Made by a program: the position numbers and the translations under genes. Shown here one piece after another: positions 4,009-62,635 of a stretch of DNA of 64,000 nt; positions within the stretch are counted from its first letter, which is position 1; each line of letters opens with the position of its first letter. The notes beneath the pieces were generated by a model. That model had not been told where the DNA came from. It saw only the letters and a program-made list of their open reading frames with translations, and ran no database searches. Source of the stretch: Styela clava (taxonomy: Eukaryota > Chordata > Ascidiacea > Stolidobranchia > Styelidae); contig NC_135251.1 in the NCBI RefSeq assembly GCF_964204865.1, positions 15,438,001-15,502,000 on the forward strand, read 5' to 3'.

Positions 4009-4016
4009 CTCTAGAC

Positions 4017-5263: not shown

Positions 5264-5271
5264 CTCTAGAC

Positions 5272-7799: not shown

Positions 7800-7867
7800 A
7801 CCTACACAATATCTAAATTGGAATATTAATTTTTAATTTTTGTATTGCAGAAATATATACAGTAATA

Positions 7868-29601: not shown

Positions 29602-32600
29602 ATGGCTAGTACATCACTAAACGTAGTGTCAACAGCCAACACGAGTACGTCAACAAGACGAAAGGAACTATCGATAATCCATCTTTCACAAAAATACCAA
29701 AAGTTATTCATTGGAGTAGGGGTGAGTACTTGTTAACAAATACAATCATTAAAGCTGCTTCGTATTATTTCATCATCTCTAGCAATATTTGTAATCTCAA
29801 TATCGACCAGTATATATGTAAAAATTTGATACCTGATCGGGTAAGAAATAAAAACAACCGTTATTCAAATGCGAATTAACCGGTAGCCTATTTTTTCAAA
29901 ACTCATCTAAAATTCCTGATGTTACCGATGGTGAAGCTTTATTTATGCATAAATGTTTTGCTAAATGATAATCACTGGTCAAATCTACAAATGTGTGGGG
30001 TCGTTAAAAATGAGAAATGTCTGCGGAAACAATATCGTAAAAATTTCGAATGCTATTGTTTGTTATCATTTTTTACTTGGTACACTTTGGACTCAAAATA
30101 GAAAGGAATGATCAAAGGGCAACCCTTTTTAGCTACAGGTACATTTTACGAAACGTGACACCTTATAAATAATTGAAATGGTGTAAACCAATGTAATACT
30201 TTTTCTAGGTTATTGTTCATATGAATTGTTACAAATAATATATCCAATTTGATTATTTAAATAGTGACCTTAATACTTGCATTCAAAATATTAACTAGAA
30301 TTAAATGAGAATTATTATGGCGCATTGTTCACAAGTATTCACTTGACTTAGAAATCACGTGATGAATCTCTCGACGGAGAATTGACGCTCAGAACATGAA
30401 GTCATGAACATGTGCAATTCCGTCAATTCTGTGCATATGAAAACAAAATACCTGTCTAACTAATCCCATACCCGACATGGACCGGGCAAGAGGCCGTAGT
30501 TCGCCATTTGATTAAGCCGTCTTATCGGCTTTCGTCTACCTCTGAATAAATATTGAAATCCTATTCTATTTACATGCTATTGGAATGCAATGGTTAAAAG
30601 TTATTATAATACTCTGTATAAGCCATCTTCGAGCTAAGGTTGACGTCGTCTATATGGAGCTGAACAATTGAATGAGTGAAATAACGATTTGTATTTTATT
30701 AATAGTCCATCCAAATTGTTATCGGTGTTGCAACCACAATTCTTGGGGGAATAGATGAACTCAGATATATTAATGGAATCTATCCCTACTATCGTCCTGC
30801 CATATGGAGTGGAGGTTTGGTAAGTTACAATACGAATTCAAACATGGTCAAATGTTCCTAATATCTGTCGTGTTTTGTTCAGTACATCATCTCTGGTATT
30901 CTCGGGATTGTTATTACAATGAAACCTACAAGGCGAAAAGTGAGTATATCGATCTTTTTTGTCGCGGTTAAGGTCTTCTGCTCACTCTCCCGTTCTTACT
31001 CTTATCTATTTCTCTCTCTCGCTACCTATCTCTATCTTCTCTCCTGCCTTTGTTGATGCCTCGTTGTACATTCACTGGCTCGACTATGTTGATAATATCC
31101 CTTATTGTTTTTACAGCTGAATACCGCTGTTGTGGTGTCATGTTTTACTTGTATTGGGTCGATTGCTGCTTTCGGAGTATCTGTGGGACATCTCAAATGG
31201 TTTTTATGGGTCTGTCTTCAACCAGTTCAACGATACTGTGTGGTAATATTATTTATGTCATTGTAAAACAGTAGCCAATAATTCAATGTGTACATGATTT
31301 TTAAATCTTATTTAAATATTTCATATCCTATCAAGTTAAAGTATTTCTGGTGGTCGAGGTCGTCTTGTCAGGACGATGAAATTCATCTAAAAAGTCCCAA
31401 AGCTTAGTATCAGTTTTGTTCGTCCATTGCCCTAAAGTTCGAAGTTTAATCATACCTATACAGTGGCGGCGCGTCGATAGGGCCAACCGGGGCAATGCCC
31501 CGGTTGTTTTTTCGGTATAATAAAAAATATTCGAAAAATACCTCAATATCGGTTGCACAGAATGTCTACACTAGCCATATTCTCCCGACATGGTTCATTT
31601 TTCGCTCGCAGAGCCTTCGCCGAACGTCGACGGGGCGACGCCGATTTTGCCCCGGTTGCTCATTGTATATCGTATTCTCTCTTTTATCTTCCACTCGCCG
31701 CGTTTGTCTCGTTTGTTTTCTGTTTCTTTTACTAAATCATCGGGGCCGATCGGGGCTAGCCCCGAAATTATGACGACACAATGCCGACGTTTCTTACAAC
31801 AACGTGTTGACAATGACATATCCTGCATTCCTTCTCGTTCGTTGGTTGCTTGAAGAGTTGATAGTTTCCTCGCCTTCGTTTTTGTCGCTTGTTTCGCTAT
31901 TTGAATCAGTTAGAGACCTTTAGTCCATTTGCTTTCGATTTTCCACATTCCTTTTGAGCTCCTCACTTCTTTCCGGCTTCGCATTTCTTAGCCTTAGACC
32001 TCATAATGAATAAGGTTGATGCACTACTTCGCACTCAAGTTTTCGCAGCTGCCGCTGGAACAAAAATTAGAGGTACAACGTCTTGGGCCTTATCAACCAA
32101 AAATTGTTCACTGGAACAATCCCATGAAGGAGGAAAGCGTCGGCGTACATTCTGCGCAGAAACTTGGTATAAAAAACACGAATGGTTGTGTTACAGCGAG
32201 GACAAAAATGCACTTTTTTGTTTTTATTGCCTACTTTTTGCTACTGCCCGTGACTCACGTTGGTGTAAATTTGGGTTTAGAGATCTTAAACATCTTTCCG
32301 AGCGTGCTAGGGATCATCAATCTTCTATGGAGCATCTGGACAATGCAGTAAAATACCGAACATTCGGAAATGTTAATATTGCAGCACAGTTGGATGAAGG
32401 ACGCGCGGTTTCTATTCGTCGGCACAACCAAAACGTCGAGAAAAACCGCCATGTTCTCGGTCGATTGATAGATGTTTTGAAGTTCATTGGTTGTCACGAG
32501 CTGTCCCTCCGTGGGCACGATGAACGGGCTGGCTCTTCTAATAGAGGGGTATTTTTGGATATGGTGGAATACACCGCATCCCTAGATACAGTATTGAGAG

Positions 32601-34964
32601 ATCATCTTGATGCCGCAACTGTTTCGAAAGGGACATCTAAGGATATCCAAAATGATTTGCTCGACTCAATGTATAAAATTTATTTACAACATTTGGCTCT
32701 GGAAATTGAGAATTGCCAGTTCCTTTCGATTCAGTCTGACGAGACAACTGACATCACGTGCGTTTCCCAACTGGCTGTGATTTTTCGGTTTGTGAAAGAT
32801 GGTAAACCTACCGAGAGATTTCACAGCTTTGTACCAATCATTGATCGCACGGCTTGCGGGATATCGGCTGTACTGAAAGAAGTGTTACAGCCTTACAACG
32901 CGAAGTCAAAATTGATAGCTCAAACTTATGACGGCGCGGCAGTCATGAGTGGGTCGAAACATGGTGTTCAAGTTTATATAAAAGAAGATTTTCCTCATGC
33001 GCATTTTTTACATTGTTATGCACACCAATTTAACCTCGTTATTAAAAATATGTGTCTTGATACCCCTCTCGTCCGTATTTTTTTGCAAATGTTTCGGGGT
33101 TTTCTTCATTTTTTTCCGTTTCGCCGAAGCGCTCTGACCTCCTTCGCCAGATATGTAGCCACCGTCTCCCAGCTTGTGCACCAACACGTTGGAACTTCCA
33201 ATCACGCGTGGTGCAGGGCGTGTCCGAAATTAGGTCTGAGCTCATTGAGTGTTTCAATGGCATTCAGAGCTCTCCGGTTTGGGACGAACGCTCTGTGAGG
33301 GAGGCGGCAGGTCTAAAGCGTTTGCTAGAAGATGGTGAGTTTTCATTTTTTCTCCACAATATTCTATCACGTGGATGTATTATACGGCGCATTGCAGTCA
33401 AGGCTAATGGATGGAGCGTCTGTGCAGTCGTGTATTTCAGACTTCTGCGATGCTGTATCTCGTATCCGGGAAACAATAAAATACGACGACACATGGAGTG
33501 CTTCTTTACGCCGCGGGCAAACAACGCAGCGTTTGATTTTGTCTGCAAAGGAATGCTGTGACATTCTGGTGAATCAAATAGGCGATCGTCTGCGCACTGA
33601 ACACCTTGCGGCGTTCTCTTTGATGAACCCCAAAAATTTTTCAAAATTTGCACGTCAATTTCCCATCCATTTGTTGGCTACTGTCTCCACATTTTACCCC
33701 ATGATAAACGTGGGTAAATTGGAAAATGAATTGCGATGCATATACACCAATCAAACTTTTTTGAACATCACATCAACTTGCGCGCTCTATGGGTTCCTTA
33801 TAGATAACACTCTAGTAACTACCTTTGCAGCGTCTGCAAAATTTCTGGACATCATTTTGACGACGCCTATTTCTTCCGCCGACGCAGAGCGAACATTCAG
33901 CACGCTGAAGCGTATTAAAACGTATCTCAGAAACACAATGAAGCAAGATAGATTAAATTTCTTGGCTGTTTCATCCATTCACAGAGACGTTATTTCTGGG
34001 ATGCATGACTTTAATCAGCGCGTTATTGAGCATTTTGCTTCCAAGAAACCGCGGCGTGTTGCATATATGTTCAAGCAGTAGAAGTCTAGCAGCATATATA
34101 TCTATGAGTGAGCGACGCATGTCCTTATCTTTGCATTACTTTCCTTTCTTCATAGTAACGTTTAAACCTTATTTTAGGTTTTGTCTGCTTTTCCGAAGTT
34201 TCTGTTAATATGTCATTGTATTTATCTGGGTAAATATTGCCTTTCCTTTTGAAAGAGGTTTCAAAATAAACTATGTCTATATTTATTAATCCCTTGACTT
34301 GGACCGGTTTTAAAGACACTTTCTTATCGTTAAAAATTGTCGCTTTTGCCGATTGGTTGTTACCGATGGAATGGTTTTTATACTCATAAAATGATGGGAG
34401 AACTTACAGCGCTCATCCTGTCCCCGTAGATGGGGGTGACTTGGTCCCGCAGTAGCTTGCCCCGGTTGTCAAAATGACCACGCGCCGCCACTGCCTATAT
34501 ATATAAACATAAAGATATAAAGGTAAAGTTCATGTATTTGGGAACACAATTGTAAACATAAAGTTTACATTTACAACTTCTCAAATAATTTTTGCAGATA
34601 TTCGGAATATACTTAGCTCTGGCTTTCTTATCGGGGAATGTGCTCGGTTTGACACTGATACAATGCTGCGTCTACTACTCTGTGTTGGTAATAATTTAAT
34701 ATTTTCTATTACTTTGACAATTCATATTTGTTATCGGTGTGAGGTCTAAGTATTTTCCTACTCAACGTTTTGCATCTCGTTTGGCCCAAAATTGTTTAAA
34801 TTACCTATCTTATTTATATGTAATGCATCACTAATTTTAATTTTTTTTATTTTTGGCAGAATAAAAAACGGAACAGTACCAGCGGAACCGTTTCCTCTGC
34901 AATGACCTATGTAAATCAAAACACGATAACACCGCAACAGCCATCTGATAACTCTTATTTGTAA
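29602..34964 (+). CDS. MS4A-like four-transmembrane protein, gene 3 (six exons, 203 aa)
   Basis: Exons: 29602-29721, 30706-30819, 30883-30939, 31117-31242, 34598-34687 and 34860-34964; all junctions are phase 0 and the frame is open to TAA. The N-terminal part is Ser/Thr-rich with RRKELSIIHLS. Exon 2 ends in AIWSGGL and exon 3 reads YIISGILGIVI, the MS4A-type W-GG/IISG signature at the start of the second transmembrane segment. Exon 4 and exon 5 (LALAFLSGNVLGLTLIQCC) give the third and fourth segments. The tail is short and polar (NKKRNSTSG...QQPSDNSYL). It is the intact partner of pseudogene A1. Intron 4 is 3.4 kb because a hAT transposon sits in it in the same orientation. Confidence 0.8.
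30390..30560. repeat. dispersed repeat in intron 1 of MS4A-like gene 3
   Basis: Duplicate of the element at 22770-23015, with GGGCAAGAGGCCGTAGTTCG and a CGTCTTATCGGCTTTCG block. A third diverged relative lies at about 63390-63510. Confidence 0.45.
31461..34493 (+). mobile_element. hAT transposon with TTF/ZMYM-type transposase, inserted in MS4A-like gene 3
   Basis: The ends CAGTGGCGGCGCGT and ACGCGCCGCCACTG are 14-bp inverted repeats. CCTATA flanks both sides (31455-31460, 34494-34499), and the paralogous intron near 23910-23930 shows the empty site. Just inside the left end is a perfect hairpin, CAACCGGGGC-AAT-GCCCCGGTTG. The element is 3033 bp and carries one transposase gene in the same orientation as the host gene. 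The six-base duplication is shorter than the usual eight, so two bases may have diverged or been lost. Confidence 0.88.
32006..34081 (+). pseudogene. hAT transposase (TTF zinc finger plus hAT dimerisation domain) with two frameshifts
   Basis: The first frame (32006 to about 33080) begins MNKVDALLRTQ, then has a TTF-type zinc finger (WYKKHEWLCY...FCFYC), a catalytic-core segment (SDETTDITCVSQL), DGAAVMSG and the HCYAHQFNLVI motif. At a run of seven T (33078-33084) the homology moves to another frame containing APTRWNFQSR. Near a run of six T (33346-33351) it moves again to the frame ending at 34081, with YHVDVLYGALQSR and the dimerisation signature PISSADAERTFSTLKRIKTY. The family resembles ZMYM1-like transposases. 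Two disruptions make the copy inactive as read, but both lie at T runs and could be sequencing errors. Frames that overlap it on both strands are incidental. Confidence 0.85.
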
Positions 34965-42900: not shown

Positions 42901-45900
42901 TTAACGACATGCACACGAGTTTGCTTTGAGGTTTTTGAGAATCTTCTGGAAGAAATATTCTTCATCTGAATATCCGGTATAATATACATTTTTATACGTA
43001 TGAGGAACGCAGCATACGGTCAAATCCGGATTAGTGCCTAAACTCTGCCAGAACAAAAATTTTATTATTTTTATTTCATTTATTAGTACTTCTCACCAGT
43101 GTTCCCTCTAGGAAAATGTTACACTGACCAAATGTTTGTTTATGTTTGTTTTAACGTGCATTAAGGCTGAGCAGAAACCTAAATGGTCCACAAATTATGT
43201 GAAATATTACAGTAATATGATATATTATAAAAATGCGCCAGACTTTGTGGGCTCGGCTAAAACTAGCCCGTTCCAAATGATTTCAGAGAATTCGAGGTAC
43301 TTGGAGGTAACAGGCACGTATGTGACATCACAATGAACAGTGGCAAGCAAACTACATATCGTCACGCTAATAGCCGGATTGAGTAAGTCATATTTACCAG
43401 TTTTGAGAAAAACGTAAAAAACTTTTGAATGATATTGTTATGTCATTGAGAGTCGATCAATAATTTGCCATGGTTCAATTTTTTGATCGTAGCAGGATTT
43501 AAATTAATTTGTATGACGCAGTTAAGTGACGTTATAATGGCGCACTGTGACTTAGGCAGAAATGTGTCTATGACTTGGGGACATACGCAATTTTGCAACT
43601 TCACTATATGCGCCAGTCCTGAAAACTAAACATTCCAAAAACGAATGTAATTCTCAGTATCTACACAATGTCTAATCCCAGAATAACAGTTTCAATTACA
43701 TTATTTTTTATGTTTAAAAATATATATTTTATCAATATAACACGTTCTGCACACCCACCGAAATAAGACCAAGATTAAATATAAAGAATAAAACAGCAAT
43801 GCACCCAATATAAAAGCCAACCAAGGTGAATTGGACTCGGACAGTGAATATCACAAGTGCACGTCTTCTATACTGTAGTATAAATTCAAATTAATACGCG
43901 CTAAGCTAGAATCCGAGATGCAAAAACTCGAAAGTACTTCGCCGAGGTTATTTTGCCTTTGTGACGTCACAATAGTCCTGAGGTAACAATGATAATTCAT
44001 TATGACGAAACAATTGCACAAATGTGCATTTCATACTAAATCTCTATTTTTATGGGTTTCGGAATTCTTAAAATAAAATCCGAGTTAACAGACAGGTGCG
44101 CAGCATTACATATAAATACTTATTTTATAAAAAACTCAAAATCGCCAAAAATGACAAAGCAATTCGGTTCTTAGCGTGACGATATGGAACGTAGAAGGGG
44201 CTTTCTAGCTAGGCGCTAGAAAATATGAGTAGGAGCCACGATTTGGAAGCGTAATGTTGCAAGTGCGCGAGAATGTAAATTTAACAAAGCAAATAGTCTG
44301 GTGGTACTGCGCATTGCGCAGTTGCGCACCTTAGAGGGAACCTTGCTACTCACCCGAGAACTGCAAAATCATTGAAGTGAAAGTTATACTTACCTCTGAA
44401 ATAGCGACAGTATGATAAGTTACATTTAAATTTGCTGAAGCTAATGAGCGCGGACAATCTCCCATACATTCTCCGATATCAAACATTTCATCTTCGTACT
44501 CTGGATGACGAATTCTCAGTCTCTGTTCAAAACAAGTTCGACGTAGTTAAAACTACAAACAGATGCAGTAATTGCATTCCATTGAATTTAGGTTTAACCA
44601 AACCAAATTTTAATCATTAACGTTTTTAATTTAATTTGCTCCACTCCACATCCTATTTCAAATGAATCATCAATAAGAATTATTGGATTTGGATTGGCAT
44701 TTAGAATTTGTATTGGTCACAAATGGTCGGGGTCACATGCAAAAAGGAGCAATGAAATGAGCGGCGATAATGAACATTGAAAGTGTTATTGATCTACCGT
44801 GAAAAAGATATATTTTGTCAAAATCCGAGTGATTTAAATGCATTTAAATCGCCACATTGAGTTTTCAATACGTAACACTAACAAATACCTATAAAATGAA
44901 ATATTCGTAATGGATAGTTTATCAAAATATACGGCCAGTTATGACTCAATAAAGCATTACAATGTATTATGTGCTGCTTTAGAGTTTAGAGCACGTAGCG
45001 CAAAGTCACGTGATTACAAACCCTGTATGCGTTTGGGCTTAGTCGATGAGACATTCTTCTACATTTTCGTGGCGTTCTCGTTGCAGCTGTTGGTGGAGGT
45101 CTTGTGTTTGCCGGCACACGTCGTTGGCGACTGCGGTTGGACTTTTCGACGCTTCTTTTTGCTCTCGCCGAGACTGTATACAAACGTAATTAGGCTGTAT
45201 GGGTAAACTCAATAGTATAACTGGCGCTTTAAAGCAAGCAAGAGTCGTCATAAAGCATCCAAATTTGAAAACACAGACAGTTAACGCATGACGCTGATTA
45301 TTTGTCTACGATTTAATAATTGCGCAACGTTTTAGGAGCAAGATGGCATTTATGAAACGAGGTGTGTTTTTATCTTTGGAATATCCTTTGTCTGACTTGA
45401 TGACGGTTGCTCATGGCAACAAAACGCCCCGCCATATTTCATTTTTCAATGTGTATGACGTCGCTTTGGGGAAACGACTGCTCTAGACGCATATGAAAAT
45501 CTGAATTTAAATTACCTCGATTTACTGTACTCTTTTCATTCGATGACGTTCCAGTTCCTAGTAAAATCTTCATGATATCATCATTTCCGTCTTGCTTGAT
45601 AGCATCTGCTTGCGCTTCATTATTCTCTATCGGAACAAGTTTAGGCAAGTCATTCTCTGACATTCCATCTGATCTGACCGAAGGTTTCACAAAAGCACGA
45701 GCCAAATGTGGCGAAATGTCTTCTTTTGGTTGAGTGAAGTGCAAAACAAGACCCACAACTTGTTCCACAACCGATATTCTGGTCTTAGTTGCTGTGTGCA
45801 TACCGCCAGCAATATATTGCCGACGAGGCAGGACACGAATGTGAAGTTTCAACAATTGATCACCGGCGATTCTCCATTCCACCAAGTTTTGAAGGTCAAG

Positions 45901-47645
45901 GTCTAGCATCATTATATTTCCCTTAGTAGATGGACAGGCTGACTGAAAATGTGAAACATTTTAAAATATCATGATGTCATAGGATTGCCACCTCATAGGA
46001 CGTCTATACTCTATATGACTTTAAAAAACGCGAAGATAGGCCTACTTCACAAGTAAAAAATTGTCAAGTTGATCACATTCGTACCTGAAAGTCGGCATGA
46101 ATCCTAGATTTACTAACATTTCTCCAAGTAGAATAAACCGCAGTGCGATATCTTCCGAAGTTTTCTCCGATTTTGGAAGGGCTAACACGATGCAATATCA
46201 ATTCTCCGGCTGTCAAATCCTGCATGTGCAACCTATGAACGCAAAAAAAACAATTTGAGTAATTGTTCACGTTACACATCACGCGTCTATCAAAGCTAAA
46301 AGTGAGGGTTATGAAAGACAAGAACTAAATTAAAACAGTTGCATACTTTTTTGAAATTGGAGCAAATGAAGCAATTCCTTCTTCTCCTGTCCATCTCTGA
46401 TTCACGACTTTCAACATGGCAACTTCGTTGTCTTTTCTTTTTTCGAATAGCGACGTCCATTTTTCTTTAACAGATTCCGATCGCCTCCAACACGAACAAA
46501 TCTCGTCCAATAATCCAGTTCCCAATTCCGTCAGACCATTCTTCCACATTCCAAGATCTAAAAATAATCACATTGTTATATCGCATATTCGTTAAATTCC
46601 TGGTGAAGGGGAGATTATGACATGATCATAGGATTGGGATCACAAACGGAGCACCGAGATGACGTGTTTGTTGATTAGGAAGGGCTTTGTTTGTGCGATT
46701 GAATTCCTAAAATATGTAAAGCTCGATCGAGAGACGAAAACATTTGATCTATAAGTTTAACCTCATATATAATCTATAAACTTACTCTTAAAATACTTGA
46801 ATGCCATTTCTTCAGATGATTTTGTAGTGATGTGTTGATGTACATCTCGACCCGCATCTGTAAAAACAAAGCAACGTTAAGTCACAACAGCGTCATTTAC
46901 AAGTTCGCGAAAAGCTAGATTAACATTTTAAACGTGAAAACATGAATACAAAATTCAAGGTGTACCATTCACTATGCACTGTCGTTAGGTGGTAACTTTG
47001 AAAATCCATGATTCAATCATGTGATCTTACTAACGTAGATACTCACCGTTTTCTTGAATTGTGTTTGGCGGTTGATTCTGTCGCGCTAATTTTCTACAGT
47101 GTGCAATTGCATCTTCAGACAATTGGCCGATTCTAAAAAAAGGCCAACAATTTGTTTTGAGCTTAAACGACAAACGCTGGACACAACTTTTCTGAATCTT
47201 TTTAGAAAATTAATAATAAAAAATACATTAACTTTTTAGTCGTAAAGATGGAAATGTTTTCTGGAAAAAATTATTTTATTTTCTCGTCAATTTATGCCAT
47301 TAGTGCATACTATTATTCGTATTAATATCCAAACGTGTTTCACCTTTGTTTCGAACAGGTTTAAGATTCTACAACCATGTCAACCAATCAATTATTATTA
47401 GACCATTTTTCCCACGGAACCTAATCAGTTCAGCATGGCACTAACGATAACTACCAAACGTTTCCTTAATTATAGAAAAGTAAAAATTAGACTCCTATTT
47501 CAATCAGTAAATTAGGGAGAAATAAATAATACCTTTGCTTGCCTTTCATACAAGTTTTAAACGCTTGTCGCTGTTGAACTGTTGAAGTTGCTACACAAAA
47601 AGAAAACAATGACACAAATATAATGAAAGTTGAAAGAGTTGCCAT
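42901..47645 (-). CDS. divergent TGF-beta superfamily ligand preproprotein (nine exons, 493 aa)
   Basis: Exons on the minus strand: 47645-47533, 47132-47047, 46857-46786, 46557-46347, 46232-46085, 45942-45516, 45173-45022, 44522-44394 and 43044-42901. The lengths sum to 494 codons and every phase joins. A signal peptide (LSTFIIFVSLFSFCVA) leads a propeptide with VEWRIAGDQLLKLHIRVLP, similar to other TGF-beta propeptides. A furin site RAKR ends the propeptide and a second basic site RQRR follows eight residues later. The mature domain has all seven cystine-knot cysteines: one in RKCRRM, two in CMGDCPRSLA, CC in TVCCVPHTY, and the final CACR. The spacings from the CMGDC motif to CC (30) and from CC to CAC (31) equal those of BMPs, and LNVTYHTV corresponds to the BMP LNSTNH region. 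The usual tryptophans between the first two cysteines are absent. It should be a secreted dimeric signal; which subfamily cannot be told. Exon 1 could start at an earlier in-frame ATG, but the chosen one fits the signal peptide. Confidence 0.88.
43097..44345. mobile_element. Tip100-like hAT element in the last intron of the TGF-beta ligand gene
   Basis: The left end CAGTGTTCCCTCTAGG and right end TTAGAGGGAACCTTG are inverted repeats. They are flanked by CTTCTCAC (43089-43096) and CTACTCAC (44346-44353), seven of eight identical. Near the right end are GCGCA repeats typical of this group. About 1249 bp; most of its interior is a second element (43360-44181). Confidence 0.8.
43360..44181. mobile_element. 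MITE with CGTCACGCTAA termini and 4-bp duplication, copy 2 (nested)
   Basis: The ends CGTCACGCTAATAGCCG and (reverse complement) CGTCACGCTAAGAACCG are inverted repeats, with ATAT on both sides (43356-43359, 44182-44185). Internal blocks (a TAAATATAAAGAATAAAACAGC region, and sequence around CCGAAATAAGACC) match copy 1 at 35714-36443. It is inserted inside the Tip100-like element. Confidence 0.75.
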
Positions 47646-48929
47646 TTTCACAATTAACAAGATGAGTTTGGGTTGAACTAAAATATATCTGAATATATGA
47701 ACGTCAGTTAATGCAGTTGAAAAGATGTGCGTAAAAAAATCATGCAGCAACATTTTTCTGGGACAAGACACTTTTCAAATTACCGATGTTAATTAAATTA
47801 CCGCACTTGTTATCTGTGTCGAATGAAGGCACATGGCCCTACTTCTAATAATACGCTAATTTCCTTCTAAAATGAGTTATACTTGGCTGACAACGGTCTA
47901 GGTTGGAATTGGCTTTCGATCAGCCATTTTGACATTCCATTCGCAGAATTAGGCTTTTTCCGATTGTCAGAACGGTAAAACCGTCTGCGGTACAGTAGTT
48001 TTCTTGTCATTTCTCTATAATCTTTTAGCCAGTTTCAAGCTGCGCTGTAAACTTGAAGTTCCAAGAAACGAAGAAGACGGCTTTTGTCACCATGACTATG
48101 AACTAAGAAATATCACAGCCTCATGATCTTGCATAACATCACACTTTTTTAATACTAAACTAGCATCGACTAAGAAAAACCACATCTTAGGGTTTCGGCA
48201 ATAAGCTACAGACTGGCGCCATGTGAAGTTGGCCAACGCGACAACAAATTATCAGATCACCCTATTGCTCTACAATGAACCCAGAACTTACGATTGGCTC
48301 ATGTCAATTATTCGTCGACTCAGAAATACGTTTCGTTTGTTTATAAACAAACAATTCAATCTGAAACAAAGAGTTCGGTAACACTGATATCTGCAATTTT
48401 ATTAATTATCGCAAGGTGCTCAGAATGTATAGCCTATTCTACCGTCTAAAACAAACCTTATCATGAACCAATTTTCTGATGAAGAGGTTTAAAATTCTAA
48501 AAATGTAAATACAATATGTGTGTTTTCAAAAGGGAGTAGATAAACTATATGTAACAAGATTGCAGTGTAATTGCACAAATACTGACGAAAATTTCATTAA
48601 AGAGCGTGAATTTTTTGTAGTCACTGCACTACGATTGTTGCATCAGCTTCGATTACCCACAACCTGAGAAATGATATATACTCGTATATATATATATAAA
48701 CTAACCCTGCTGTAACACTAAGGTTCTGTACAGCTGGGAGCCATTCGGATGAACTACAATCGTTTCGTAATCATATGCAGAGTTTGTACATTCAGAAGCC
48801 AAGAGCGAGTTTGTTTTTTTTATCAGTGGTCAACATAACTAGACGATGTATGTGTATGCATACTTTCTTTGTGTTAAGCTAATATTTGCAACGCCGCCTA
48901 TCAACGGTATGAAGTTCAATGGGACTGTG
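47646..48929. other. 5' flank of the TGF-beta ligand gene
   Basis: Presumed promoter side of the minus-strand ligand gene. No element, RNA gene or second coding region was recognised. Confidence 0.4.
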
Positions 48930-49145
48930 CGGTGACCGTACATTTGAATCCACGTACATTCTGAACCCATGTGTATATCCGCAGGTTCAATCTATATGCG
49001 GGTGCCAAAACCCATGGGTTAGGGTTAGTATAGGTTCAAATATCCGTGAAACAAAAAAAATTTCCATAGGTGCAATAGCATGCAGGTGCAATTGTCATGG
49101 GTTCAAATGTACGTGGGTTCAAATGTAATAGAACCGGACTGTGCA
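48930..49145. mobile_element. small inverted-repeat element (MITE-like)
   Basis: ACATTTGAATCCACGTACAT near the left end pairs with ATGTACGTGGGTTCAAATGT near the right end. Between them are several GGTTCAAAT or CATGGGTT units. About 200 bp, non-coding. An open frame across it is a by-product. Confidence 0.5.
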
Positions 49146-49744
49146 TATAATGAAATAAATAAAGAATTCTTTGAAGTTGACCTAGGAACTTTCGGTTACC
49201 TTTCATTCAGCTTTTAAGAAAAATTTGTTTTTTTGTTTGTTTTAAATAAAACAGACTTTTCATTATGTTTTTTATGTTATGATTGTAAAATTTACTTATT
49301 TGTAAAACACGTCTCAGTACTGTACCCCTTGAAAATAAAATGTCTCCCAAAACCATCCACGTTGTGTTATAGGATGATATGCCCTTTGAATCAACTAACT
49401 TTTGTTTGTGTGTCATCAATTCTGCCACCCTCCCAAATCTATAGAATGTCACTAAAATGCAGTTGAATCGTGAAAGAGAGCAAATTGTTGAGCAACTTTT
49501 TGATTGTAATTTTGATCTGTACTGTATTTTGTATTAGATATATTTTCTCTCTTGTTTTTTATTTCTCTCTCGATGATACCCGCAAGATGGAACAACTATG
49601 AATCTTCGTAAAATATATATACTTTAGCCGTATTTTTTTGAGTGAAAAAGTTTTTAATCGAGGCATTTTGGTAGTGGAATCTTGTTTGTTGAAATCTAAA
49701 AGTAATGCTTAAATACATATTCACTACAACAACAACAATAATTC
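49146..49744. other. gene-free spacer
   Basis: AT-rich sequence with only short frames; nothing supported. Confidence 0.4.
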
Positions 49745-50050
49745 AGCCAGACCAGTGATTCCCAAAGTGGGCGATATCGCCCCCCAGTGGGCGAAAACGA
49801 TACAGAGGGGGGCGAAAAAGTCTAAGGGGGCGATAGGGGGGCGATTTCGCAAAACCTGTTTTATGTTCGGCGCACTTAATTCTGTACTCTGTGTGCATTG
49901 GCAGGCTTGAATCATGTGGGCGATATTCACACGCGAAAGAATTTCTGGTCTCGTCTTCGCAGTAAGGTGAGGTAGTTATCCCAGTGCGTATCCCAGTGGT
50001 CGGCAAAATACGGCCGGAGTAAAATAATCTGGCCCGGGACGATTCACTGA

Positions 50051-50546
50051 ATGGACCTTTCCCCGACTTTTGACTGCGGTAAATTTTTCACCATTTTAAA
50101 ATTTTCGGTGCTTATTTTAAGAGTGGTTTCGCGAGTTGTTGCCTGTAAAATGGGGTATTTGTTTCAAACTATCATTCTAATACACACCATTTAACAATCT
50201 GTTTTATTAAAAGTACCGATAAAGAGTTTTAGCCTAGTCTATCACAGCTATTTCTACACTCATTTTTGATTGCTGTATTTAAACTGAAACTCATAGAAAG
50301 ACAAAGTAATCATTGACTTATTTGATTTATATTTGAATTTCCGAAAAACAACTGAAAACTAACGAATATAATTCAAAAACGCGAAAATGAGGTAGTGTTT
50401 ACGACCACGCCTGAAAATCTGTCTGAGTGAGAGTGTCTGAGCGCCTGAGCGGATGCGAAAGGGGGCATTGTTACGTTTTTTGCATCTTGCTGATTGGCCA
50501 ATGTCACGAAGTAAACAAGGAAGTCTATGCCCGGGGAAATATCCAA
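50051..50546. mobile_element. MITE with ATGGACCTTTCCCCG terminus, copy 1
   Basis: The left end ATGGACCTTTCCCCG is clear, while the right end (CGGGGAAATATCC) has diverged. The interior matches, in the opposite orientation, the element at 62636-63114, for example the block TGATTGGCCAATGTCACGAA. About 496 bp, third level of nesting here. Confidence 0.7.
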
Positions 50547-50977
50547 ACGGCGGTTTTGACGGTGAATTTTTTTTATTTATAATCTACGCTCGAGGAGTAT
50601 ATTACATTTTTCTAAGTAACAGAATTTATCGTGAGACACGTTTAGACTAAATTATACTATATCCTAACAATTTAGTGAACAGCCACTCGTTTAACGAGCC
50701 TACAATTTAATTATAATTAAACAAATGAAAACACGCAGCAAAGTTGATGCTGAGTGCAGGGGTTCAATAGCGCAGTAAATATTCCAATATATTGCAAAGC
50801 AATAAGGAAATAAAATTCATAATCTATTCGAGAGATTCATCACTGCTTAATTTTTGTAAGAATGTATCTTCTTAGAAAGAAAATATTTATCAAAGTTTCA
50901 CAAATCATGCAAAAATATTCACTTCGATGTTTGGAAGTACATATTTGTGCAAACCATTATTTTCGAAGATGAACATT

Positions 50978-51253
50978 ACAAAGAACAAGCAAAGAAGTGG
51001 GTTTGGTGATGCCCATTTAGAATCTGTTTCAATCTTGGCATCGTAAAGCTATCCAGCGTGATGCAGCAACGTGACAGTGTCACATTAAATATCATTGTAA
51101 TATATTTTTAATAAGACAAAGAACAAGCAAAGAAGTGGGTTTGGTGATGCCCATTTAGAAAATGTTTCAATCTTGGCGTCGTAAAGCTATCCAGCGTGAT
51201 GCAGCAACGAGACAGTGTCACATTTAATATCATTGTAATATTTTTTTAATAAG
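50978..51253. repeat. tandem duplication of a 138-bp unit
   Basis: Two adjacent copies each begin ACAAAGAACAAGCAAAGAAG and contain GTGATGCAGCAACG and a GACAGTGTCACATT segment; they differ at only a few positions. Lies inside the nested hAT-like element. Confidence 0.85.
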
Positions 51254-51652
51254 ATGACTGAGTTGAGTTCACGTATTGTCGCAGTTTTTGCGCGCTATTC
51301 CGTTTTCAACTTTCAAAAAATATATGCGACCCGCAAAAGACTAGCAACTCTGAATTTTGTCTTGCAAGCGACATAAAATTTGCCGACCCCTGGGCCGTAG
51401 CCGATAATCAGTCACGGCTTCTTCCACATCCGAGTCAATGAATCCAAAAACAAATGGCTGGTTAATTATGGACTGGTGATCGGACTGGAGGCCGTGATAG
51501 GATGAGGAATCGGGGATGAATTTTTCCGAAATATTTTGGTGCAGGTCATCAGGCTGTACGAATGAATGAGATCATTATTATAAGTTTGGGAAAATTGACT
51601 TTGTTTTTTTTATTTTAATGTGAAATGGGGTGAATTTAGGAAGTGAAATGCT

Positions 51653-51859
51653 ATGAGGCAAGAGTACACGCCAGTTTTTGAGGAGGTAGAACCCTGGATT
51701 CTTTCCTTTCCGACCTATTATATGGTGAAAAAGGGGTTTTCAGCCGTGCTACTATTGCTATTAAAACAACGAAATCACCTTTTCATCAGTAAACGGGGTA
51801 ATTTTAGATATAATAAAAAACTCGCTGAAGAACACCAAGCTCATCTATCTCATTAAAAA
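51653..51859 (+). pseudogene. C-terminal remnant of a hAT transposase (ZBED/SCAND3-like)
   Basis: A 67-codon frame containing FPTYYMVKKGFSAVLLLL, KQRNHLFISKRGNFR and EEHQAHLSH at its end. This resembles the dimerisation region and C-terminus of hAT transposases in the ZBED5/SCAND3 group (FP-x-YLVEKGFSAV, RGDLR). It belongs to the surrounding hAT element, of which no other coding part is left. Confidence 0.6.
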
Positions 51860-52069
51860 ACACTATAAACTATGATTTGTCTTCTTATTTGGTCTGTACT
51901 ATATTCGTTTCAGACTTTATATTTTTTGTAGTGCAGGGGGGCGATGAAATTGCATAAACTACTTTAGGGGGGCGATGGTCAAAAAAGTTTGGGAACCACT
52001 GAGCCAGACGATCAATATCTACGCTACCGTAGATCACACCATATGGGTAAAGCTGTAATCGTTGGTGTA

Positions 52070-52317
52070 CAGTGTTCCCTCTAAGGTGTGCGCGCGCACA
52101 CAGCTTTCAGAGGCTGCGCACACGCATAGATTTACTGCGCACAGACGTATTTCGATGTAATGTAACAATGTGCTCGGTTGGCAGGTTGAGAAAGTTTGTT
52201 GTTGGCCCACCCATTACCCGGTTAGAACGCCAAAATTTCTTCATTAGTTTTTGCACAAATATTAGTCATTTCCAAAAAAGTGCGCACACATACTACAAAA
52301 AATTAGAGGGAACATTG
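52070..52317. mobile_element. Tip100-like hAT MITE
   Basis: The left end CAGTGTTCCCTCTAAGG and right end TTAGAGGGAACATTG are inverted repeats, with GTGCGC motifs inside each. 248 bp. The flanking eight bases (TTGGTGTA, TAATGGTG) do not match directly. Confidence 0.6.
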
Positions 52318-52659
52318 TAATGGTGTAGCGTATCGTTTATACAAAAATGATTTTTCTAAGTCCAAAATATCTTCTAATTATATAATCTGATGTCAATATT
52401 CCCTTCAATTCATGCTATTTTAATCTATTTATGAATTATCAGTCTTAATACAACCAAATAGAACAGAAAGGGTACAATGAATATAACAGTCATCACAATA
52501 TAAGAAAACAATACATACAATTGAAACTGAAGACACACCCTGAAATCAAGAAAAACCCTAAAATCCGGTACACAACTGGTCATTTGCATGATACAGGCAT
52601 TTTAAAAAACCATACACGATTATTTAGATTCTAGATTCTAGAATTAGATACAACGCAAT

Positions 52660-54732
52660 CAAGGTTCCCTCTAAGCTGCGCAACCGCGCAATACCACCAG
52701 AACATTTGCGCAGTAAAATCTCATGCTCGCGCAGCAACATTTCGTTTTTAAATCGTGGCTCATATTTCATATGTCATTTATATTAACGCTCAACTAGAAT
52801 GCTCGTTTTATGTTTCACGCGTATTCTGGTTAACACTAGTCATGGTGATGTCACACACGTGTCTGTCACGAATACCTTGATTTCTGTATGCCAGCGTGGG
52901 TCGGTTTTTAAAATTTTCATCGGCGCTCTGAACTTCGTGTTGTCGACCCGGCAAAATCTTGTTATTGTCCGTAGTGTAATCGAAGAGATGAAGATATGGG
53001 ATGGTTTAGAATTTGAATAGGTATCAAATGTTGCAAAGCTGGAATTTGAAGAAGAGCTGAGTTTAAGCGAGTGCTAGCACTGTCGGCTCTTAAATCTCTA
53101 GATTGGTACACACGTGGCCATGAGCTTAAACTGAATGATACCCATGTTATATAGCAGGGATGGCGAACCACTGACCCGCGGGTCACAAAGTGACCCACCG
53201 CGTTTTATCCGTGACCCGCCAAGGCACGAATAAAATTTAAAAAATGCTAACATATCAGTGATAAAAATTTATAAAACCGGCCTTGAATTAATTTAACAAT
53301 TAAAAACTATTATAATGTACCGTCAGTTGGGCAGTAGGGCTGCGATCGCTCATATTCAAATGTGGATTCAAATGGACGCATGTTTCAATGTCTGCACCGC
53401 TGTGTACCGTTATTCATTTATTGGCTCTGACATCGTTTATAAAATAACAATGCAATTAATCTGTTCATTTCTCGCAACGTCTTGTTTTTTTCGGAAGTGC
53501 ATCTGTATACTGTTTTAGGGGTTATACGAGAACTAGATGCTACTTTGCATTTTATTAGTTTCTCGCCTACAATGCCATTGAGAAAACAAAATATTTCAAA
53601 CTTGAAATAAAAACCTAGGAATCTGAAATAACAATTGGGCAGTGTAAAAGTGTCTTAATGTGGCTGAAAGCTGATCAAAAAATATAACACTATCAGAGTG
53701 GAATTCTCTCCAACTCTTTGAAATATTTTGCCACATAATCATAAACGTTTTTGGTAATTCATATGCGTTATTTCGTACTCCAATTTCATAAAATCGAGTG
53801 CCATATAAAGTCCCTGATAGAAGCGTTGCATAAGTAAAGCCCAAAACTACACCAACACCAACAGAAGCTTATAAGATTTGTTCCAGAAGTTTCATAATTA
53901 TAGATACAAACATTGATTAAGTAACTGTGACCCACTCACTTCTGTTACGCGATAAAAACATAATTTTTGACCCATTCATTGCCATTCGCCATCCCTGTTA
54001 TATAGCATTGTTGTAAGCATGTTTCACCAGAAATTACTAAAAAAAAAGTTTTAAGCGTTTTCATATTCAGCATATTAACCAAAACCAATAATATACTAGT
54101 TTTCTTTATCTGACGTGTAAGTGAAATGTCAATTCAAGGAAGTAAAGCTAAAAATAAAAAAATTAATTTTAAAGTGGAATGGCTAAATACAACAGTGAAG
54201 TGTTCGACACTAATTTGCAATCTTGATACCGGTATGCATAAGCTAAAACAACTGCTAAACTTTGCAAAATTTATTGCTTGTCAACGTACACTAAATTGCC
54301 ACATTTATGGTGAAGCAAAAATTACGGCTTCGAATTTTTGATAAGCATAGACTTCGTCGCCAGGGAAGAAATCATGCGGAGCATAAGACAAGCAAAATTC
54401 ATACTATGATTTTGATGAAAGCAATGATGTTTCAACAACAAAAATGTGGAGATTGTACATCAAGTATTGTACTTTGGATGATTGTCGATTGATTCAGCAA
54501 TAAACACAACAAACATGGACAAAATGTATAAACCTTGGAGAGGCACGAAACCAAAGAGAAGCTATTCGAGTTAAACGTGTGCTTTGTTCGCATTCCGACA
54601 ATACATAATAAGCTACTATTACTACATTTCACAAAGTTTGCAAATAATTTAGGATTCTGCTCAGCCTTAAAATATTCTTGCTCAGTAAAAACAATATTTG
54701 CGCAGTGTGAAATTTTCTTAGAGGGAACACTG
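52660..54732. mobile_element. Tip100-like hAT element with a nested hAT element
   Basis: The left end CAAGGTTCCCTCTAAGCTGC and right end TTAGAGGGAACACTG are inverted repeats, flanked by AACGCAAT (52652-52659) and ACCGCAAT (54733-54740), seven of eight alike. It has GCGCAG repeats at both ends. 2073 bp, of which 843 bp is the element at 53155-53997. An open frame at 54126-54341 may be a transposase trace, but no motif is recognised. Confidence 0.8.
53155..53997. mobile_element. hAT element nested in the Tip100-like element
   Basis: The left end CAGGGATGGCGAACCACTGA and the right end TTCGCCATCCCTG are inverted repeats; GTGACCC and GACCC motifs follow inside. Perfect 8-bp duplications TTATATAG lie at 53147-53154 and 53998-54005. 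843 bp, no transposase. Confidence 0.85.
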
Positions 54733-54740
54733 ACCGCAAT

Positions 54741-56172
54741 TGAAAACCACTGTCAATTCTTGGTACGTGGTAGTGGTCTCAAGAAATCCATAGCGACCCG
54801 TTCCATAGGAGAGCCGCTCAGTAGTTGTCGTAGATCACATTGTTTACGGCCATGTGTCATCTTAGCCGCAGCACATGGTTTGCAAAATCGAATGAACATT
54901 CTTCTGAAAAATTAATTTTCCGCAGAATTTACTCAGATAACTAGGCTCGGCGGTATGGTCAGCATATTAAACAAAGAGATACACATTTTATTATGAAAGT
55001 TCTTGATGCAAGTATTGCTAATTGCACAGAACTTATTTTAACAAACTGACAGAACTACAATACAAATTACACTACAGAAACTTGCAACTATTTGTACATG
55101 ATAAAATTTACAACACGGTGTACATCGCCAAAATATATTAGAAAAATATACTACATGCATGGAACGGAGGATAACGATATATATCAAGGTTACAACAAGA
55201 ACATCTAATATTCTGGAGTGTATGAAATAATATATATTATATATCTATGTGACTTGAGCTCCTGCTGCAGTTTTATTAGCATACTGTTTTTCAATAATTT
55301 TATTTGCCACCTCTTTTGCGTGGATATTTAACCTTATATTAACAAAACGTTTCAAAATTTTAAAAGCGACATTGTGGCAAGATGGAAAATTATATTTCAA
55401 GCAGTCAACTTTAACTGTCACAAAAGTAACTTGGCAAACATATATTATGAAAGGCATTAATATTGGCGCTAAATATAGTTTCTACGTCGCCCAAAAATAC
55501 GATTGCGTTTTTGGATGGGTGGCATAAATATTGGGTAAAACTATCAATTTTTATCATGCGTGTAAGACCGAAAATGAGTTAAGTAACGATTGATTAAACA
55601 TGGATAATAATTCCTAAAAAATGCCAATATAAATACGTTTGGTATCTGATTATGGGACGTAAGTAAATGTCAAAACCAAAAAAATTGGAAGACCGCGTTT
55701 ATAGGGTTCTGCCGGAAACATGAAGGCAAATTTTTCACTGTTGGATATCATTAAAATTACAATTAAGTTTTATCAACGGAAAGGTGGAAGACATGATGGC
55801 GTCGCTAGATCACCTAGTAAATATTTTACATTTTCCGACGCGAAAGGATCGTAATATCCTGACAATATGTTTATTGAATGCTGTAACACCAGTCGCGGCG
55901 ACTGGTCTTCAAATTTTGTACGTTATAATGCGCAACTCGTACGCTTCAATGAAATTCATTATGCCGCGCAATGGGCTAGCCATGAGACCGTTTATATTCT
56001 ATGAGTTTTGCAGCAACTGTTGCAACAGCTCGTTAAATCACGAAAAATTGTCCCGAGAAAATTTGGACATTTCATCAGCTTCTCGAATGATTAATGCAAA
56101 ACGCAGGCTTTGTGTGAACAGGTATCACACTACCAGTTCAAATAATATCTGCTTTAAACGTATGTTTTGGAT
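54741..56172. other. gene-free stretch with one possible transposase trace
   Basis: A minus-strand frame at 55457-55245 (70 codons, with ILKRFVNIRLNIHAKEV near its end) looks like the C-terminus of a transposase of unknown type. A plus-strand frame at 55784-56287 runs into the next element and has no recognisable domain. Nothing else supported. Confidence 0.35.
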
Positions 56173-56859
56173 CAGGGGTCTCCAAGTCAAAATACGTCAC
56201 GGGCCACTTTTTGATAATTTATCGATGACGCGGGCCACAAACCAACAAATTTGGTACAAAAATGATACACAAAAAAAAAAAATCTGAATATATTTGTTGA
56301 AATTATACTTGAATCTTACACAAAACGGGACATGAAACATATTCATTTACTTGTGCTGGATATTTGGCACCGTTTTGTAGCGATGAGAGACTCGATGTTT
56401 GGCCTTGTTTTGCGTTGGTTTGCTAGTCTTAAGACAGCATGCAAACGCTCGTCTGTTAGTCGTGAGCGAAAGGCTGATTTGTTAACTTTAATTGTTGAAT
56501 CAAAAATAATGCTGCTATTACTTCACAGGCTTTCCTTCAGCGAAAAAACGCGACTATTTCGCAATCATCTCACTTATGGAAAAGCTTGCTTCCACTGAAG
56601 CTTCACAAGTTTTGTTTATGCCTGAAAAAAAAATTCCCTGTTCCATCAGTGAAAATTTTAATTGCGATGGCTTTTCGTGACGAATTGTTTCAGTATAGAG
56701 ATGTTGTTTTCCCCCTATGTAATGAGCCGTAATGTCATCGAATGTTGTATTCCTTTCGAAAAGCAATAATTGCACAACATATGATCCACTGAACCTTGTT
56801 ATTATGATTTAATACAAAAAACAGATCTGTGTTGTGCTGTGCTGTGTTGGAGATCCCTA
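56173..56859. mobile_element. hAT-like MITE (CAGGGGTCTCCAAG)
   Basis: The left end CAGGGGTCTCCAAGTC and right end GTTGGAGATCCCTA pair as inverted repeats, with CACGGGCCAC and GCGGGCCACAAAC blocks typical of this class near the left end. The flanks TTTTGGAT and CTTTAGGT match at five of eight bases. 687 bp. Confidence 0.6.
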
Positions 56860-57154
56860 CTTTAGGTTAATGACGTTTCACGCTTGCGAGGGAAAGCGAT
56901 ATGTGTTTTTCATAAGGAAAGCAGAACTGTTACGTTGCAACGTAATTGCGAAACGTCGCTGCGTAACGAAGTGGTTAGGTTGTTTAACTCAAGTTCGCGC
57001 AGCGGACATGTGAAGAATTAGAGAACATTGAATAAAATAGCTTATACAATTTTACAAATAGGTTTTTCAAAAAAATTTTACGCTTTTCAATTTTGCCGAT
57101 GTTTGTACGATAATCGCGACATTTTATCTCTATCTCATAATTAGTCTTCTAGAT

Positions 57155-58651
57155 CATAGGTTCTCAAAGTGCTCCGTACGGAGCCCCAGGGCTCCGCGAG
57201 AGAAACCCAGGGGCTCCGCGAGCTATTCGATTACTCTTCGAAATACTGACTCAAAATTTTGTAACTGTTGAAAGAAGCAATAACAGCGTTGATAAAATCT
57301 GACAACAATACAGCCTCGAAATATGGTAAAGAGGCTGAATTAAAAATGACATTATTTATAAGCAGGAGCGCAGCCAGGATTCTTAAGAGGGAGGTGGTTC
57401 AAAATTGGAATCGGAAATTTCCGCGCAACATTCTTCGCCATTAAAAAAACGGATAACGAGATTTCTGTTGCGTAAAATATTCAATCCATGACCGATGCGA
57501 GCATTCAACGTGTCTCTTCGTTATAATGTAATTGTGATCATCGTTACTCAAGTTTGATTCGAGATTAGTATTAGTATTACTTAAATGAAAGAATACTATT
57601 CTAAAATAACATAAAATATGTAATAAACTGCCAACAATAAATAAAGTGGAGTCGTATTTTCGCGATCTTGGGATTCGTCAAACTTGATTTGTTCTTTCGC
57701 ACCTGAGATTATTTTTAAGCAGGATATCGCCGTTTAAAAAATCACAATGTCTGGGCAAAATACGAACAATTAGAATTTATTTTATTGCATTCGGCTCCGT
57801 CGGTAGTTTCAGATTGAAAAAAGGTACATCGTGGATCGCGTGCACAATTGATTGCGTGCGGCTTCGTCGGTAGTTTCAGAATGGGAAAAAAAGGTACATC
57901 GCGCGCACAATTGACTGTGTTTCGATTTCGCAGTTACTACGACGAAAACCTAACATAACACCAAATTTTGTGATTTACAATGTCTATAAAAGCGTTTTCA
58001 ATCTGAGGTGAGTCTGCTGAAGCCAAACGTGTGATCTTCCATTTTAAGTTTCAGTTTTAATATTTTAGAATGCCGTTTTTCAATCAAGAAATTTGAGTTG
58101 CGGATTTATCTCTTTATTAATTATAATTTTTAACATTTCGTCGCAGATGACTATTATATGGTAACATGTTTTTCACATTGAACTCATAATTTCCCACGAG
58201 AACAAAAAAGGAATTAACGTCGTCATTGTGTAACAATACATGTATATGCCGAGGGAAATTTTTGATTTAAGGAGAATAAACACCGGCGTAAAGATGTTCA
58301 AAACACGCCATGCTGACGAAAAAAATCGGCGATTGTAACAAAATAAAATCGCGCACGTTATTAGCGGCCTGTTAAGTCTTCCAAAAATGTCAAAAGAGAA
58401 AAGATTCGACCCCTAATTTATTAATATGTTCGTCAAGTGTCAAATTTACAGCTTTAGTATGAAATTCAGATTCATTTATGGCTTGTGTTAATCCTATTAA
58501 AAAAGGTTCAGCATTTTAAATAAGTAAAGTACTTTTAACTTGCCCAGGAATATTAATCTGAAAGTAACAATTTTAACATTTATTTTGGGGCTCCGCGAAT
58601 AATATTCAACTTTTCAAGGGCTCCGCAACACCAAAAGTTTGAGAACCCCTG
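57155..58651. mobile_element. hAT element with perfect 8-bp target duplication
   Basis: The left end CATAGGTTCTCAAAGTG and right end GTTTGAGAACCCCTG are inverted repeats, and GGGCTCCGCGA blocks follow inside both ends. Flanked by TTCTAGAT at 57147-57154 and 58652-58659. 1497 bp. No transposase recognised. Confidence 0.85.
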
Positions 58652-59076
58652 TTCTAGATTGTCTCTCAAACAATATAAAACTTGTCTAAATATAATATAA
58701 GGTTAGTGAGATATGAGGTTTCAAAGTTGCATAACTCACACGGGATAATAAGATAGAAAACTATCGCAACTTTCACGATACGCCGCGTTCCCGGACACAT
58801 AATGGCGTCCGATTTGCATCATGGCACTCGGTGTCTCCACTTGGTTTATAGTCACTCTGGATAACGCTTAGTCTCTAGAAGTCTAGACTGCAGGGTGGTC
58901 CAAGGTTGTCGGCTTCGCGGCCCACACTAATATTTTATTTTTGTATTGTTCGCGGGCCGCAATAGTGCACAATAGGTAAACAGTGCAATACAAAACAACC
59001 ACTCTAGAGTCCAACTCTAGATCTTCATGTATATAGTCCTGTGGCTGCGGTTTATGATCCGAACGGCGCTTCAGGC
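58652..59076. other. spacer with a hAT-like left end
   Basis: CAGGGTGGTCCAAGG at 58891, followed by GGCTTCGCGGCCCAC and, about 45 bases on, CGCGGGCCGC, looks like the left end of another hAT MITE. Its right end was not found. No gene. Confidence 0.4.
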
Positions 59077-59336
59077 GACAACTGCAGATAGATGAGGGTT
59101 CTCTGCTTGGCAAGTTCTAATCATTTCCTCCGTGTATGTGTCCATCCAGTTACAGCCTTTTGTATCTCGGGAAAGTCAGAGTTGAAAAGAGGTGCTATTA
59201 GCAGACGACAACTGCAGATAGATGAGGGTTCTCTGCTTGGCAAGTTCTAATCATTTCCTCCGTGTATGTGTCCATCCAGTTACAGCCTTTTGTATTTCGG
59301 GAAAGTCAGAGTTGAAAAGAGGTGCTATTAGCCGGA
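59077..59336. repeat. tandem duplication of a 130-bp unit in the retrotransposon remnant
   Basis: Two adjacent near-identical copies begin GACAACTGCAGATAGATGAG and end with GAGGTGCTATTAGC. On the minus strand each copy reads as part of a pol-like region after RNase H. The units differ at about two positions, so the duplication is recent relative to the element's decay. Confidence 0.85.
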
Positions 59337-59443
59337 TATTGATAACAGGGTACAGTAAAGTAGACACACAGTCCGGGCGCTTACAGCGTTTGGTTTGACG
59401 AGGCAGTCCATCTGCATTACCATGTTTAGTCCCTGCTCGATGT

Positions 59444-59785
59444 TCAAACCTGAAGTTGTGTGAACAGTGTAGAAATCCAGCGAACCACCTTCCCTTCTGG
59501 TTCTCGGAAATTTAAAATCCACTTCAAGCCACAATGATCAGAGCGAATCAAAAAGTGTCTGCCCCACAGATAATGGCGAAAATGACGTACTGATTTAACC
59601 ATCGCCAACAGCTCCCTCTCTGTTGTACAATACCGACGTTCCGTCTTAGATAGAGTCCTACTGAAATAAGCATGTCCCCCCCCCCTTGCAGTTGTGATAA
59701 AACAGCACCAGTAATACTCGCGTCGGTGTCCAAAATAAACTCCCCTTGAACCAAACGAAAAGCCAGAATATGAGCTGACACTCAT
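59444..59785 (-). pseudogene. RNase H region of Ty3/Gypsy-like pol
   Basis: The motifs are LDTDASITGAVLSQLQGGG in one frame and FSRTLSKTERRYCTTEREL, KSVRHFRHYLWG and IRSDHCGLKWILNF in another, the standard RNase H block order of Ty3/Gypsy pol. The frame changes near a run of ten C (about 59680-59690 on the plus strand). Not functional as read. Confidence 0.8.
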
Positions 59786-59788
59786 AAT

Positions 59789-60450
59789 TCACGTTTTTTT
59801 AATCCAACGAACCAGAGGAGATGCTAGGGTGGCATAACCAGATACAAAACGCCTATAATAGTCGGCAGTTTCCAAGAAACTTCTAAGATCTGATATTACT
59901 CGAGGCGTTTCCCATTCGACTATTGTTGCTACATTGGGAAGATCACAGCAAACTCCTTCGGAAGAAATTTTGTATCCAAGGTAGGTAACTGATTGCCAAC
60001 ACAACTGGCGTTTAGTCGGCTTATGTTTCAAACCAGCACCTCGAATGAAAATCTCCCTCAAACTGCTCAATGAGGCGTCAAAATCCCATTCGTGGGCTAA
60101 AACATCATCCAAATAATTTGAACAACATTTCCCGACTGAAAACGGTTTTCTTTTTGCCAGGCAGATCAACTTCTACCTGGCAGTATCCACTAGCTAAGTC
60201 AAGTGTTGAGAACCAGCTTGATCCGCTAAATGACCCCACGATGTCATCTATTCGAGTTAAAGGGGAACCATCTATGTAGGACCTGTAGGTAATTGAATTA
60301 GGTGCCTAAAATCAATACAAAAACGCGTACTACCATCTTTCTTAGGTATCAGAACAATTGGTAACGAGTGCGGGCTATCACTCAGCTCAATCACTTCTTG
60401 TTCAAGCATCTTGTCAACAGTGTCCTCCGCTATTTGTCTCCTTGCCCAGC
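59789..60450 (-). pseudogene. reverse transcriptase region of Ty3/Gypsy-like pol
   Basis: On the minus strand the upstream part reads IVLIPKKDGSTRFCIDFRHL (the fingers motif). After several stops comes SNYLDDVLAHEWDF with the YLDD catalytic motif, then AGLKHKPTKRQL and VTYLGYKISSEG, typical of Ty3/Gypsy. The block order is correct but the frame is broken between the two parts. Confidence 0.8.
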
Positions 60451-60472
60451 CAAGACGCCGGGCAGAGGCGTA

Positions 60473-61020: not shown

Positions 61021-61084
61021 GGTGAAATTTTGGCGCTCCTGTACCTTGGCGCCAGGGGGCATATGTGTCCCTGTTGTCCACACC

Positions 61085-62563: not shown

Positions 62564-62635
62564 AAACAGCATTAAACAAGGGTAAACATACTAGTCTATA
62601 AACATAAAAAAAATATATACACACAATGGACCTTT

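Follow-up and report, generated by a model that had tools for sequence, protein, structure and literature searches.

A candidate TGF-beta superfamily ligand gene of Styela clava without the fingertip tryptophan pair and with changed residues at the type II receptor knuckle

The window analysed here is a stretch of 64,000 nucleotides from the ascidian Styela clava (RefSeq assembly GCF_964204865.1, contig NC_135251.1, positions 15,438,001 to 15,502,000), to which all coordinates refer. It holds on its minus strand, between 47645 and 42901, a ligand gene that we model as nine exons encoding a prepropeptide of 493 codons with no internal stop. All eight introns are of the GT-AG type and the joining phases are consistent. 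The initial annotation had opened the gene at 45173; the three C-terminal exons lie where it placed them, but our model extends the gene upstream to 47645. The proposed exon 1 (47533-47645) has a GT donor and joins in phase, and would supply an inferred ATG start codon followed by a signal-peptide-like N terminus, MATLSTFIIFVSLFSFCVATS, whose hydrophobic stretch resembles a signal peptide when judged by eye. The propeptide is completed by exons 2 (47047-47132) and 3 (46786-46857), both placed by AG/GT boundaries and phase, and by exons 4 (46347-46557), 5 (46085-46232) and 6 (45516-45942, 142 codons) of the gene model. Exon 4 is the second-best codon-usage segment in the window, a ranking that is partly circular since the codon model was trained on the same gene. 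The features of a TGF-beta propeptide are seen here by eye, with no Pfam or PDB match behind them: searches with the propeptide returned no Pfam family at E<=0.01 (the best being DUF1281, E 0.11), no PDB chain at E<=10 and nothing in NCBIfam. An Rfam search of the window also returned nothing.

The mature ligand is encoded by the last three exons. Exon 7 (45022-45173) carries two furin-type sites, RAKR (45154-45165) and RQRR (45118-45129), followed by a Pro/Thr/Arg-rich arm and the codon for the knot cysteine C1 (45061-45063). Basic cleavage sites thus precede the C-terminal mature domain, and they lie close together before the arm, as the initial annotation had described. Exon 8 (44394-44522) encodes the remainder of finger 1/2, devoid of Trp, then GECMGDC and a wrist region with PRSL and an NVT sequon. 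Exon 9 (42901-43044) runs from CCVP to SCACR and the stop codon, and the alignment places Tyr and Thr in it at the equivalents of BMP2 Ser88 and Leu90. The candidate ligand domain is thus spread over the last three exons, whereas in the lamprey, zebrafish and human TGF-beta genes it occupies the last two, according to the passages available from PMC8931421.

Exons 7 and 8 are separated by intron 7 (44523-45021), whose three-frame translation contains isolated Trp residues and no Trp pair, and exons 8 and 9 by intron 8 (43045-44393, 1349 bases). The latter harbours a hAT-like element of 1249 bases (43097-44345) with inverted ends CAGTGTTCCCTCTA and CAAGGTTCCCTCTA and near-identical 8-base flanks, CTTCTCAC and CTACTCAC. 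This end motif occurs 6 times in the window, where 0.2 occurrences would be expected, and two of the six belong to this element. The same inverted ends would also delimit two further possible elements (52070-52317 and 52660-54732), the pairing of their ends being our interpretation. Pieces of hAT-type transposase were found at 31958-33298 on the plus strand (DUF4371, E 6.9e-18) and at about 60762-60923 on the minus strand (Dimer_Tnp_hAT, E 3.7e-6). Also on the minus strand are a retroelement RNase H domain (about 59465-59671, E 2.2e-20) and a weak, below-cut-off zinc knuckle (about 61183-61230, E 0.0015). A possible leucine-rich-repeat protein gene occupies about 7817-8735 on the plus strand, with an LRRNT-like start (E 0.019, below the cut-off) and an LRR_8 match just below the cut-off (E 4.5e-6). 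Two near-perfect two-copy tandem repeats were noted at 50978-51254 (138 bases) and 59072-59332 (130 bases). Over positions 1-14999 and 48001-62999, a six-frame Pfam search gave LRR and transposon-type domains only.

The last three exons (45173-45022, 44522-44394 and 43044-42901) encode a TGF-beta-type domain, as first proposed. The mature region contains seven cysteines, the knot cysteines and the interchain one, in the order C, CxGDC, CC, CAC, which agrees with the superfamily order C, CxGxC, CC, CxC. Pfam TGF_beta (PF00019) matches it with 36.1 bits, above the gathering score of 27 (E 1.2e-8). This match covers profile positions 20-104 only, and exon 7, which has no match to the domain HMM, is therefore linked to the rest not through homology but through its splice phase, one Cys and its furin sites. 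Among PDB chains BMP3 ranks first (E 3e-4), ahead of an activin/BMP2 chimera, activin A/B and BMP2; those of AMH, BMP6/7 and GDF15 come lower, with E between 0.1 and 0.5. Against an HMM built from 18 BMP-type ligands the mature domain scores 20.2 bits, while shuffles with the cysteines held fixed (500 made, 498 reported) average 1.9 bits with a maximum of 14.6; the likeness is weak, but it goes beyond the cysteine pattern. With the same HMM, AMH reaches 44.5, LEFTY2 33.2 and GDNF 14.2 bits, the last being no better than the top shuffle. Given the seven-cysteine pattern, the protein would very likely fold and dimerise as a usual TGF-beta ligand.

The distances from CxGDC to CC (30 residues) and from CC to CxC (31) had been read as BMP-like. 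They do equal those of BMP2/4, but they are not diagnostic, because BMP5-7 have 31/31 and the other subfamilies are off by one to six residues in a comparison set of 35 ligand sequences, of which BMP8A, GDF3, GDF6, GDF7 and LEFTY2 were misread by the script on these two spacings. For AMH and GDNF, two of its four Trp-less members, the sequence was verified through its score with PDB chains.

The distance between C1 and C2 is 31 residues under the 45022/44522 junction, and the modelled mature domain contains no Trp anywhere. The length of 31 is uncertain, as it depends on the choice of donor: on a provisional splice matrix, which also underlies the donor filters used below, the donor at 45021 scores 1.7 and that at 45009 scores 2.6. 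The latter shares the same acceptor, would render coding the 12 bases at 45010-45021 (VCNH), and gives 35 residues with an extra Cys. The Trp-less segment of 31 residues described in the initial annotation therefore stands for one junction, with 35 residues for the other.

That annotation had also allowed for another exon between 45022 and 44522 that would restore the usual Trp region, and such an exon was sought by enumeration. Between C1 (45063) and C2 (44468), with GT or GC donors, 21 of 536 two-exon choices are open and none contains Trp. Without a splice-score filter, 137 of 8649 three-exon choices are open; 33 of these 137 contain at least one Trp, and a Trp pair occurs in none. All 33 fail the donor-score filters and were set aside for that reason, and the four open three-exon choices that pass contain no Trp. 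Among the 12 shortest of the 33, six use the same open stretch of intron 7, NWPYILINYPLRIFHFIGIC (44940-44881, minus strand), which is followed by a stop, carries one Trp and is faintly finger 1/2-like by eye. A finger 1/2 HMM returned no row for it, and it would be a chance occurrence or a relic. Over the six frames of the window (stretches of at least 12 residues) this HMM gave nothing above 8.0 bits. Its eight best rows all lie outside the gene, the best row inside it being exon 8 (rank 33 of 186, 2.9 bits). The motif W-x(1,2)-W-[IVL] occurs 11 times in the six frames of the window; within the gene span on the minus strand there is one occurrence, located in intron 1 (frame 47372-47440), and none in introns 6, 7 and 8.

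The Trp pair of fingertip 1/2, a mark of BMPs and activins, is thus missing from the model and from every enumerated choice. In the comparison set, where the segment from C1 to C2 measures 25-28 residues, it contains two Trp in 31 of the 35 ligands and no Trp in AMH, GDNF, artemin and neurturin. The premise of the initial annotation that known family members carry these residues does not hold for these four. As stated in PMC8256043, AMH lacks the two conserved Trp 'present in all other ligands', in activins and BMPs these Trp accommodate a Phe of the type I receptor, and type I binding by AMH is judged likely to be altered; the review PMC9256959 also notes the loss in AMH. In the literature passages and abstract openings covered, no TGF-beta ligand other than AMH is described as missing the pair. 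Loss of the pair is hence precedented in AMH and, within the comparison set, in GDNF, artemin and neurturin.

A second alteration, absent from the initial annotation, concerns the type II receptor knuckle. In an ungapped alignment with BMP2 starting at CC, on which the comparison depends, 9 of 37 residues are identical, and Ser88, Leu90 and Leu100 of BMP2 are replaced by Tyr, Thr and Gln. Where BMPs and activins have a small residue and Leu at BMP2 positions 88 and 90, the candidate has Tyr and Thr. The Leu90 equivalent is Leu in 27 of the 35 ligands compared, the others being AMH, GDF15, GDNF, artemin, neurturin, INHA, TGFB1 and LEFTY2, the last misread since it has no CC. Of these, AMH, GDF15 and the three GDNF family ligands (GFLs) rely on different type II receptors or on co-receptors. 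TGFB1 differs at 88/90 yet signals, and such a change is therefore no proof of lost function. The AMH residue that corresponds to Ser88, counted from Cys525, is L535, and PMC8256043 considers a clash between L535 and the aromatic triad of ActRII/BMPR2 likely. By analogy, the Tyr of the candidate would be expected to clash in the same manner. Other BMP marks are kept: the wrist Leu at C+4 (BMP2 Leu51) and an NxT N-glycan sequon one residue off the BMP2 site. Finger 1/2 is too divergent for its contact residues to be aligned. The altered receptor contact put forward in the initial annotation is well supported by sequence, and is widened by the changed type II knuckle; the receptor step itself would be a consequence of these changes.

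The kinship of the domain was approached with subfamily profiles and trees. Among 16 groups scored, activin gave 23.5, BMP2/4 22.1, BMP3 19.5, GDF15 18.7, BMP5-8 16.5, AMH 14.9 and GFL 12.0 bits, gaps that are too small for assignment. In trees of the mature domain, the candidate adjoins the GFLs when all columns are used (support 94/93, its end branch of 6.87 being the longest in that tree), when the C1-C2 columns are removed (76/76), and when the AMH, INHA, LEFTY2 and GDF15 rows are removed as well (66/90). None of the starred sets contains the candidate row. Clades with AMH, BMP3, GDF15 or activin are not rejected (p-AU 0.26 to 0.72; 0.59 and 0.72 with AMH, and 0.26, 0.35 and 0.37 with BMP3), and the placement with GDNF likewise survives the tree tests. 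Long-branch attraction likely affects the position of the candidate. A search for relatives in viral contigs gave 100 pattern matches, of which none was confirmed.

Compared with known ligands, AMH resembles the candidate in lacking the Trp pair of fingertip 1/2, in its bulky residue at the Ser88 equivalent and in its seven-Cys domain. AMH and Dpp share the highest identity with it from C2 to the end (19/71). AMH differs by a C1-C2 segment shortened to 25 residues, against 31 or 35 in the candidate, with 2/25 identities across it, and Pfam includes an AMH propeptide model whereas the candidate propeptide has no match of this type. With BMP2/4 the candidate shares the spacing, the wrist Leu and the shifted sequon, and with BMP3 the SCACR end (11/37 identities from CC on); it is distinguished from both by the missing Trp and by Tyr/Thr in place of Ser88/Leu90. 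GDF15 is alike in having a changed type II knuckle. Membership in the Panda/Maverick/GDF15 group was considered and rejected on the marks given in the available passages of PMC4564238: that group has nine cysteines and no wrist Leu, whereas the candidate has seven cysteines and retains the Leu.

Several explanations can be weighed against these data. In a lineage that evolves fast, a ligand of the BMP5-8 or BMP3 type could have diverged to this extent and continue to signal through BMP receptors by other contacts, its Trp having been lost by drift or by intron sliding at the exon 7/8 junction. BMP3 as best PDB match, the 30/31 spacing, the BMP2-like wrist Leu and NxT sequon, and the unrejected BMP3 clade all point this way. 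BMP5-8 genes also carry two introns in the mature-domain region, one within the Trp motif, and both would match those of the candidate in position. However, the candidate has Thr where most of the ligands compared keep Leu90, and the activin and BMP2/4 profiles score above those of BMP3 and BMP5-8; we regard this explanation as possible but on the unlikely side.

An invertebrate member of the GDNF-family type, acting through a GFR-alpha-like co-receptor and RET instead of type I/II kinases, would account for the Trp-less fingertip and, by eye, for the acidic DE before the second strand, both as in GFLs, and the best trees do place the candidate beside GDNF, artemin and neurturin. These placements lack starred support and involve long branches, the CC to CxC distance is 31 against 27-28, CCVP stands in place of CCRP, the GFL profile reaches 12.0 bits where those of BMP2/4 and activin reach 22-24, and no GDNF chain appears among 23 PDB matches at E<=10, all of which makes this origin improbable in our view. 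Least probable of all is a true transcript that differs from the model, with a Trp-bearing segment from intron 7 or from a distant exon and exon 7 or 8 misread: the donor of exon 7 is weak, this exon has no HMM match to the domain and the single-Trp stretch of intron 7 is partly spliceable in some three-exon choices, but no enumerated choice yields a Trp pair, the single-Trp choices fail filters built on the provisional matrix, the finger 1/2 HMM stays at or below 8.0 bits in the six frames (exon 8 at 2.9 bits), and exon 7 carries the furin sites, a correctly placed C1 and an in-phase join.

The reading that we consider probable is that of a fast-evolving secreted ligand which would have lost both canonical receptor epitopes, in parallel to AMH, and would use altered receptors or act as an antagonist. 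The product is predicted to be a secreted, furin-processed member of the TGF-beta superfamily, one that no longer has the Trp pair of fingertip 1/2, into which the Phe of the type I receptor fits in BMPs and activins, and that has Tyr/Thr at the knuckle positions used for ActRII/BMPR2. With the pair absent and the knuckle residues changed, both the knob-in-hole type I contact and the standard type II contact would be unusable. The ligand would then probably follow the AMH mode, with a receptor set that is modified or of low affinity, or may compete as a poorly signalling partner.

A bolder version, that a non-vertebrate ligand lost both epitopes independently of AMH and acquired a dedicated receptor pair, seems to us rather unlikely; if true, it would mean that the same pair of changes can redirect the TGF-beta fold again and again. 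The present basis is one divergent gene, known here from its sequence. If a second lineage besides AMH has indeed lost the Trp pair and altered the knuckle, it would offer a natural experiment in receptor switching, and could bear on the means by which AMH, lacking the knob-in-hole contact, engages its type I receptor.
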